DNA of 64,000 nt, taken from assembly GCF_003073045.1 (NCBI RefSeq), contig NC_037595.1:1550001-1614000 (forward strand), written 5' to 3'. Positions 22,701 through 25,700 of this stretch are shown one piece after another. Positions within the stretch are counted from its first letter, which is position 1. Each line of letters opens with the position of its first letter. Under the pieces are notes generated by a model. It saw nothing but the letters and a program-made list of their open reading frames with translations, was not told the origin of the DNA and did no database searches. A program made the translations under genes and the position numbers. This stretch comes from Pomacea canaliculata. Its lineage: Eukaryota > Mollusca > Gastropoda > Architaenioglossa > Ampullariidae.

Positions 22701-25700
22701 GTTTGCTCATTGTTGTTATTGTGGCCATCCTTTTGTTTGCTACTACTGCAGAAATTCCCAGTCAACAAAAACCATTTGTATTTGTATAGTACCCTTGTAG
22801 TTCATAAGTACCCTTGTAAATCTATGTAATTAGTAACTTCAGCTGTATGTATTGATTTGTCCAACTACCTTTCATCTGTATTCAACCGTCACTCGTGCCT
22901 TTCATTGAAATTTCATGTCATTATGATGACCTCTGTTCCTTATGAAAAATGTTGCAAGCTCTAAAGAGCATTTTCAATCAAATTTGTAAGAGCTATGCAG
23001 GGCGCCTTGATGTGTATTTATAGTACTCCAATTTGTGAGAAATCTCATAACCTTTACTATGGTGTTAGCAGTAGAAATCTTATTTTGCGCATGCAACATG
23101 CAAGGAGTCTCTCACTTTACATGTAACAAATGAATGTTAAACCATGTAAACTGTACCCTTGCTGGTAAGATGTATGCTTGATGCTTCATCCTGGTGTTCT
23201 GTCAATGCTGTGATCTATGTAGACTGTGAATGTGTGTATGTATGCATGTTCTTTAAGCTTGTAGCATGTTTATATGTTCGGCTTTCAGGTGAAACTGGTT
23301 CGGTCAAATCCCAAAAGTCAGGATTTTGTGGCTTCTAATTTTGCGGCACATAGGGTGTACCACAAATACCAGACTGTGGTTCACAAGGACCCACCTGAAA
23401 AGCCCAACCTGAAGCAATACACACGATTCCTTGTTGAATCACCACTTCAGGTAAATGGGTCACAATCCTCTTCTCACCTTCTTGTCTGTATTTTTGTTTT
23501 TCTATTCTTAGGTAAAGTTAGTGCGCACAAGCCCTCCGTCTGATGGGTACCGCTTCTCCTTCAAGGAAACACACAAGGTTTTTATGAAGTACCAGATGGC
23601 CATTCACAAGGAGAGTGCTGCGGAGTGCAGTAAAAATAGCTTCTGTGAATTTCTGGTCAATTCGCCGCTAGAGGTGATTACTCACAGCTTCTGTCCACAA
23701 CTGCTTACATATTTCCTGGGTTGTTTGTTGGTTTACGTATTGTGCATGCTTTTAAACGAGAAAAGACGATTTTTCTTTATGAGTATAAATGCTACTGTAA
23801 AGATGGAAAGAATTAGCTGGAGTTTGACCATCTTGCTGGGTAGAACAATATTGAATATTTATTTATTTTACCTGACAAAAACAGTCAGAGAGAGGGAGAG
23901 AAAGAAGCAAATAGGTTGCTGACCTACCAGGGATCAAAGGATTGCTTTGATTGCTTTGATTGCTACATCCATATCTCATTCCTCTCCTCGCTCACTCTTA
24001 CAGTGGTAGTTTCATAGCCAGTGAGGTTTATGGGAGGCATGGTTATTGCTAGGTGACAGCTAATCACAGGTGCAAATACACTCTCTGTTGCTTTCGATTA
24101 GCGCCACATATATGTGTAGCTGAATCATTGAAGATGAAGGAGGTGTATCAAAATTTTGTAGGCATTCTATATGCAGAGAATATATTTATTCTCCTTTGCC
24201 TTTCAAAGAAATTATCTGGCCTTTAAAGTTCCAGTTGTACAAAAGCATCTAGTGCCTTAAACTAGAGAACTTGCTAAGTGATATCAGCCTTATCTTTTAT
24301 CATTATCTCAAAGAGGTAATATGTATGGAAGCTTGCTTAATGGATCCTATTCCTGGTAGTTTGATATTACATCAGTTTTAATTTGTTGTTGCATTTAATA
24401 TAATGTTAAAAAGTTTAATTATCGCTTCTCTTATGCAAACACTTGTTTGATATTCATTGCTTGAAATTTTGCAAACAGAGGAAGTTTTTCGTACAGCATA
24501 GTGGCAACATCACCCCTGAAACCACAATGCTATAGAGTCAGTGTGATCAGTTTATTTGACATTTCTTATTTTCACGGAGTTATAAGATGAAAATGTTTAG
24601 AACTGTCAAAATAAATTCGTTTTCTGAGAACTTCCAATGAAATTAATAGTACAAAGTAGGAAATTAGTTTTGAGTTTCGAAGGATGTATATTTTGCAGAA
24701 ATTAAAATAAATTTAAAAAACAGAAATGTTAATTATAATTGGCTTTATTTAAATGCCTATTTATTTTTGTGATTTCTTGCTATTTGTTAATCCTTATGGT
24801 TGAGGTGAGAGAATGCATGCTAGTGTATTGTCTTCATGCACGTGAACAACTGCTTCCTAGCCTGCATTTATTTTTCCAGGCCCTGATGCCAGCACCTGGA
24901 GAGCATGGCCTGACCCATGGCTATGGCTCATTCCACCAGCAGTACATTCTGGATGGGAAGATCATTGCTGTAGGGGTGGTGGACATACTGCCTTTCTGCC
25001 TGTCATCTGTCTACCTCTACTACGACCCAGACTATGCCTTCTTATCTTTAGGGACATACTCTGCACTGAGGTACATACTGTCATGTTCATCATCAACTCA
25101 AGTAGATAGTTATGCAACACTACACAAGTCGTGCATATCACGTGAGAAGACTTTGATATTTTTCAATTAAAAAAAAGCAGCGAAAATTTGTGATATGAAT
25201 GAACAACATTAACATATGTTTCATTTTCCTTTGGCTTTCAAAAAACTTTGATTATAAAACAGAAGCTCTTATTTTTTCAAAAAAAGGAGAGCCAGAGTTT
25301 ACCAATTACTGCCAATTTCTCTGTTTGGGCAGGTGATGCCGATGTTCCTTTTGTAACTTAAGGACAACTTAGGTTACATAATGTCTGCTGACATGTCTCT
25401 TGACATCACATTTTTCTGATATCTGTTGTCCTGCATCCTGTGAGCTCCAGAAGATCAGTGCTACTCACCATACTCTGTCCATCTCAACCACTACAATTCT
25501 CATCTGCTTATTCTGTCTAAACTAGACTACTGCGACTCTCTTCCTGCTGGCTGTCCACAGCACCTCATTGATAAACTTCATATAGTCCACAACTCAGCTG
25601 CTCATCTTGTTTTCCGCACTCGCAAATCTCACACCACTTCTTCACTCTTTTCATTGGTTACTTGTTAAAGCTTAGAAAAGACTACCAGCTCTCAACTCTA

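Follow-up and report, generated by a model that had tools for sequence, protein, structure and literature searches.

The window, a 64,000-nt stretch of Pomacea canaliculata DNA (NC_037595.1, positions 1,550,001 to 1,614,000), contains two adjacent, homologous exons of the arginyltransferase gene ATE1, here called A and B. We read A and B as alternative exons of one ATE1 gene that go back to one tandem duplication before the cnidarian-bilaterian split, and give this reading a probability of roughly 0.7. The complete ATE1 coding region lies on the + strand at 13785-27495, where 11 exons with AG/GT borders, A and B both included, were assembled from splice sites:

13785..13881, + strand, exon 1 with the start codon and a CxxC motif (splice-site assembly)
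16777..16840, + strand, exon 2 (splice-site assembly)
19114..19547, + strand, exon 3 with a CC motif and a variable region (splice-site assembly)
19889..19998, + strand, exon 4 (splice-site assembly)
21308..21388, + strand, constitutive exon directly 5' of the pair, ending in phase 0 (splice-site assembly)
23289..23450, + strand, A-type alternative exon A of 54 codons, with Lys at codon 38 and Arg at codon 46
23451..23511, + strand, intron between A and B, 61 nt
23512..23673, + strand, B-type alternative exon B of 54 codons, with Glu at codons 38 and 46 and Cys at codon 39
24880..25070, + strand, constitutive exon directly 3' of the pair, where the ATE_C match begins
26072..26171, + strand, ATE1 exon with the second ATE_C match
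26775..26892, + strand, ATE1 exon (splice-site assembly)
27317..27495, + strand, last ATE1 coding exon with the stop codon (splice-site assembly)

The introns of this gene measure, in order, 2895, 2273, 341, 1309, 1900, 61, 1206, 1001, 603 and 424 nt. An earlier note on this DNA had named the gene ATE1 from the letters alone, and the identification was confirmed. ATE_C gave two matches in the whole genome (440 Mb, 24 contigs), both above the curated cut-off and both in exons of the window gene. The product spliced with B has 511 aa and is identical to NCBI arginyl-tRNA-protein transferase 1-like isoform X1 (P0003, the representative of 5 clustered sequences), which carries both ATE_N (PF04376) and ATE_C (PF04377). 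As the annotated P. canaliculata X1 uses B alone, the B isoform is already annotated. Taking A in place of B changes 33 residues of the protein.

The description of A and B as two homologous exons also held in every detail: each is 162 nt long and runs from phase 0 to phase 0 between proper AG/GT borders, the spacer is 61 nt, and 21 of 54 residues (77 of 162 bases) are identical. The local score was 104, whereas 5000 shuffles reached 52 at most, which indicates a similarity beyond chance. With A or B as the tblastn query, the window returned the query and its counterpart (E 4.6e-10), followed by matches of E 1.6 for A and 0.12 for B, and no third copy of the exon was found in the window. Each exon splices in frame between 21308-21388 and 24880-25070. 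None of the four outcomes (A, B, A+B and neither) disrupts the reading frame, so nonsense decay is unable to enforce exclusivity. Being adjacent, homologous and in frame with proper splice sites, A and B qualify in structure as tandem homologous substitution exons.

Relatives were collected with the full-length ATE1 protein (best 120 of 3390 proteins used) and with the first 100 residues of a hemichordate ATE1 (best 120 of 1896 used), which gave a combined set of 202 different proteins plus the two window exons; seven of the 202 lacked the core word. A protein search with the exon-B region gave three candidates and returned Pomacea only. Among the matches listed in the 202-protein set, at least 35 proteins contained two copies. 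The copy spacing was 54 codons in 14 (11 molluscs, a spider and two decapods), 52 codons in 13 (a cockroach and 12 ants), 43 codons in seven (five vertebrates, the hemichordate Glandiceps and the coral Acropora palmata) and 38 codons in Lottia, which was excluded as a likely mis-model, leaving 34 usable two-copy models. These are double-inclusion gene models, largely automatic predictions, and they inform on a shared gene and on copy order, not on the frequency of A+B. The order was A-type then B-type in 34/34, as judged from codon 39, the tail pattern and the derived tree rows. Clean swaps were seen in isoforms from one contig: X2 and X3 of Acropora muricata differ by a single 43-codon block, plus a 2-residue difference elsewhere, and the differences between X1 and X2 of Mya are confined to 52 alignment columns, as expected for an exon of 54 or 55 codons.

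All tests of origin used the 43 exon codons only. The 84-row set of 43-codon segments comprised 42 rows from 20 two-copy relatives and the window pair and 42 single-copy rows, and the 74-row set was obtained by removing 10 rows that lacked a taxon assignment. An exon tree of the kind proposed in the earlier note grouped A with A and B with B across phyla: with 84 rows, one branch parted the 21 upstream copies completely from the 21 downstream ones (ultrafast bootstrap 89, SH-aLRT 80), with one label change, and same-type grouping spanned molluscs, arthropods, vertebrates, a hemichordate and a coral. The Pomacea exons paired with those of vertebrates upstream with upstream and downstream with downstream, as that note had envisaged. 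The 42-row tree had two label changes, and one change was seen in only 12% of 200 bootstrap trees. Same-to-same matches were found in 146 of 153 cross-phylum species pairs, which are non-independent.

Separate tandem duplications in protostomes, deuterostomes and cnidarians, with selection driving the downstream copy to the same acidic-Cys loop each time, would be the main competing history. Such selection is compatible with all tree, AU and simulation results, the unit lengths differ between groups (43 against 52-54 codons), and the available text of PMC9741552 treats most events shared by human and fly as convergent (35 of the 42 human events whose genes have a fly event too, the other 7 being judged of shared ancestry). 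This three-origin tree also survived the AU test with 42 rows (p = 0.099), in which one origin had p = 0.54, duplication per phylum p = 0.028, and none of the single-clade constraints was rejected. It was rejected with 74 rows (p = 0.0080), where one origin had p = 0.497 and duplication per phylum p = 0.0026. In the same set, separate deuterostome, cnidarian and arthropod clades gave p = 0.011, 0.021 and 0.037, and separate mollusc (0.055), protostome (0.080) and vertebrate (0.080) clades were not rejected. By more than 0.2 log units, 26 of 44 columns favoured one origin and 13 the three-origin tree. After removal of five diagnostic columns, three origins (p = 0.020) and duplication per phylum (p = 0.0024) were still rejected, with p = 0.41 for one origin, and the free tree then needed three label changes. 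Moreover, 800 alignments were simulated under separate origins (two trees by two models, 200 each): FastTree recovered a single label change in 0/200 of each of the four sets, compared with 106/200 under one origin. The common 5' border and the A-then-B order throughout also speak against separate duplications, which we regard as rather unlikely. The sequence comparison thus suggests one origin. Shared ancestry of each Pomacea copy with its vertebrate counterpart is supported, though not decisively with 42 rows, and the earlier suggestion that the pair predates the protostome-deuterostome split gains support, weaker in the 42-row tests, with its reach extended to Cnidaria.

Six proteins (P0136, P0137, P0145, P0157, P0169 and P0197) carry a single A-like segment whose codons 38-39 are Lys-Cys and formed their own clade (SH-aLRT 100) in a constitutive-region tree built without an outgroup; they may help to root the exon tree. 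Rooting with them left the root unsettled, because they stand in a clade of their own in a tree that has no outgroup.

The extent of the swapped unit varies. It is 43 codons in the coral, the hemichordate and the vertebrates and 52-54 codons in molluscs and arthropods. Among the insect units (ants and cockroach), A has 54 codons, and B has 52 codons in ants; the insect B exons of P0142, P0152, P0170 and others are two codons shorter than A. Mammalian ATE1 alternative exons are 129 nt long. The vertebrate unit has the same 5' border as A and B and ends 11 codons earlier (43 compared with 54), and it therefore represents the same site with a different extent. The claim that the Pomacea pair occupies the same protein position as the vertebrate one thus stands for the 5' border and fails for the extent. 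In the 43-codon group, the unit is followed by a common [FY]xRFL tail, whereas in molluscs and arthropods the tail lies inside each copy. The Arg of RFL was present in 7/7 shared tails of the 43-codon group and in 27/27 upstream copies of molluscs and arthropods, but in 0/27 of their downstream copies. Since the 43-codon unit with its shared tail is common to coral, hemichordate and vertebrates, it is probably the older form. In molluscs and arthropods the unit would later have grown from 43 to 54 codons, and the Arg that is kept by A and by the shared tail of vertebrates, hemichordate and coral would have been lost from B. One speculative route to the duplicated tail is that the downstream intron was lost and the copies then underwent gene conversion.

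At the sequence level, codon 38 (alignment column 39) is the clearest isoform mark: A has a basic residue there, and B an acidic one or, in some ants, Gln. Upstream copies had Lys or Arg in 33/34 models, the exception being Glu in the ant Cataglyphis (P0187). Downstream copies had Glu or Asp in 27/34 and Gln in 7/34, all of the latter from ants, and a basic residue in 0/34; 33/34 of them had Cys at codon 39. Over codons 33-43, 26 of the 34 models had the more positive charge in the upstream copy; the copies were equal in 6, and the upstream one was less positive in 2. The mark is imperfect among the single-copy rows: codons 38-39 are Glu-Cys in Nematostella and Lytechinus, both of which nevertheless fall with A, and codon 38 is Ser in Octopus, which falls with B.

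The position of the exon in the protein was taken from an AlphaFold model of the B isoform and from alignment with yeast ATE1. Exon B corresponds to residues 263-316 of the model, with pLDDT of 93-98 over the exon, in a region composed of a strand (261-267), a helix (273-293), a loop and two further helices (298-301 and 303-311). Foldseek matched the model to human ATE1 8tzv and to the yeast enzymes, and human 8tzv aligned over the full 145-residue query with E 2e-43. HMMER aligned codons 21-53 of exon A with yeast residues 167-197; this segment scores 5.5 bits by itself and is collinear with a significant downstream match. On this weak alignment, codons 24-32 map to yeast residues 170-178, codon 38 to the loop between helices alpha-h and alpha-i, and codon 46 to Arg190. 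According to the accessible part of PMC10115844, yeast residues 170-178, at the end of helix alpha-h, contact tRNA, and the alpha-h/alpha-i loop faces helix alpha-a across the substrate cleft, the simulated distance being 20 A when zinc is present and 5 A when it is absent. From the predicted structure and the yeast mapping, the swapped segment would comprise the strand, helix alpha-h and the alpha-h/alpha-i loop, and in molluscs and arthropods helix alpha-i as well. By homology, it would touch the acceptor arm of the tRNA as well as the peptide cleft at its rim, so that exon choice would switch substrate or tRNA handling. There is perhaps an even chance that animals have had two functionally distinct arginyltransferase isoforms since before the cnidarian-bilaterian split, that the swap reverses the charge of the cleft-flanking alpha-h/alpha-i loop, and that protostomes widened it to include helix alpha-i, with the loss from their B isoform of an arginine that is conserved elsewhere.

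The length of the 61-nt intron bears on how the two exons are used. It is shorter than all of 84 sampled introns, each of at least 116 nt, which were estimated from neighbouring exon hits in the TCP1, myosin and kinesin genes of the Pomacea genome (44 + 40), a small sample biased to introns between well-conserved exons. Three suspicious cases of short introns hidden in spanning kinesin or myosin hits were read; the hits extend past the exon and hold no short intron. Because an intron of 61 nt is too short for easy splicing, each Pomacea mRNA would most likely take A or B, joined in either case to the exons beyond the long flanking introns. In the branch-point-like word CTCAC the A stands at intron position 26, in agreement with the earlier note, and a weaker candidate at position 40 would relax the steric constraint. 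Steric exclusion is plausible and fits the intron length, and strict exclusivity is a candidate reading: the comparison with the 84 introns fits it, and A+B gene models in ants and vertebrates count against it.

These gene models also suggest another possibility, namely that A and B are two independent cassette exons, not exclusive in practice, with A+B or neither as a normal product. The frame is kept in every combination, and the 34 usable two-copy models include ants and vertebrates. Ant isoforms have exactly 54 or 52 codons absent or present, A+B models occur in the six ant species compared (P0152, P0162, P0165, P0167, P0170 and P0182), and Odontomachus (P0179), Anabrus (P0171) and Schistocerca (P0173) have one model each with neither copy, so exclusivity may be leaky in insects. 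On the other hand, the 61-nt intron is an outlier in the Pomacea genome, no 565-aa Pomacea model occurs among the best 120 of 3390 proteins, and the bivalve and coral isoforms show clean swaps, which makes independent cassettes distinctly unlikely. A further proposal is that competing RNA structures pick A or B, with the purine-rich 23873-23927 masking the branch point and pyrimidine tract of B and looping B out. Human ATE1 provides a precedent, in which R1 and R4 compete with R3 and R2-R5 span 30 kb (PMC11802352, in the part available); it is also listed as structure-controlled in excerpts of PMC8052449, PMC9977717 and PMC10790352. In Pomacea, the duplex of the 61-nt intron with 23873-23927 reached -36 kcal/mol, with 0/60 shuffles as low, the best of 12 tests. 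However, 5 of the 12 tests had at most 2/60 shuffles as low, which indicates that the shuffle control was lenient, and pairing was as good in 165/600 random, 34/236 GC-matched and 12/63 pyrimidine-rich windows. The local fold had z = -0.54, and the duplex is known from a single genome. It was dropped as evidence, since so many random and composition-matched windows pair equally well. The scan of the introns for complementary elements, to which the earlier note had pointed, gave nothing better than this sole candidate; RNA-structure control in Pomacea is accordingly unsupported, unlike the long-range pairing that the reviews, as far as their available text goes, describe for human ATE1, and we consider it very improbable.

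Outside the ATE1 exons, a short telomere-like GGTTAGGGTTAGGGTTA run lies at 22116-22132 (+), in the intron upstream of exon A. A weak reverse transcriptase match (PF00078, E 2.3e-4, 21.4 bits against a cut-off of 29.6 bits) at 43516-43974 (+) is probably a decayed retroelement; ten open frames from other parts of the window gave no Pfam match beyond it, and the tRNA search of the window found none.

The vertebrate 7a/7b exons agree with the Pomacea pair in gene, protein site, 5' border, upstream A-type and downstream B-type, and human isoform ATE1-2 (PDB 8tzv/8uau) is B-type; they differ in having a 43-codon unit and a shared RFL tail, in contrast to 54 codons with a tail in each copy. The existence of a tandem exon event in ATE1 is already known. 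In the portion of PMC9741552 available, such events are reported for vertebrates, arthropods and nematodes, and ATE1 is named just before the statement on convergent evolution; the arthropod and nematode Ate1 exons are a substitution event in the same gene as in Pomacea. The arthropod models analysed here have 52-54-codon units, like molluscs, and their exons group with the A and B exons of vertebrates and molluscs, in contrast to that convergence context, in a sample without Drosophila and nematodes. The Ca-alpha1T/cca-1 exon pair of an unrelated gene, as given in the same partial text, is likewise ancient and traced to molluscs; it is conserved across protostomes and was apparently lost before chordates, whereas the ATE1 pair is kept in vertebrates and a coral. 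In the literature searched, as far as its accessible text goes, ATE1 tandem exons beyond vertebrates are mentioned in PMC9741552 alone, and further papers (e.g., PMC5602094, PMC7443856 and PMC3905889) could hold more. What appears to be new, given this literature, is the common origin of the pair, its two unit sizes and the charge mark.

Mouse ATE1 isoforms have been reported to differ in target-site preference, while another group reported similar specificity, so that the matter is disputed (PMC6212499, partial text). The charge change at codon 38 offers a direct hypothesis for this disputed difference. If the pair is common to corals, snails, insects and vertebrates, it would rank with the older alternative-splicing events that have been proposed for animals, and one origin, if true, would revise a case that has been grouped in print with convergent events.
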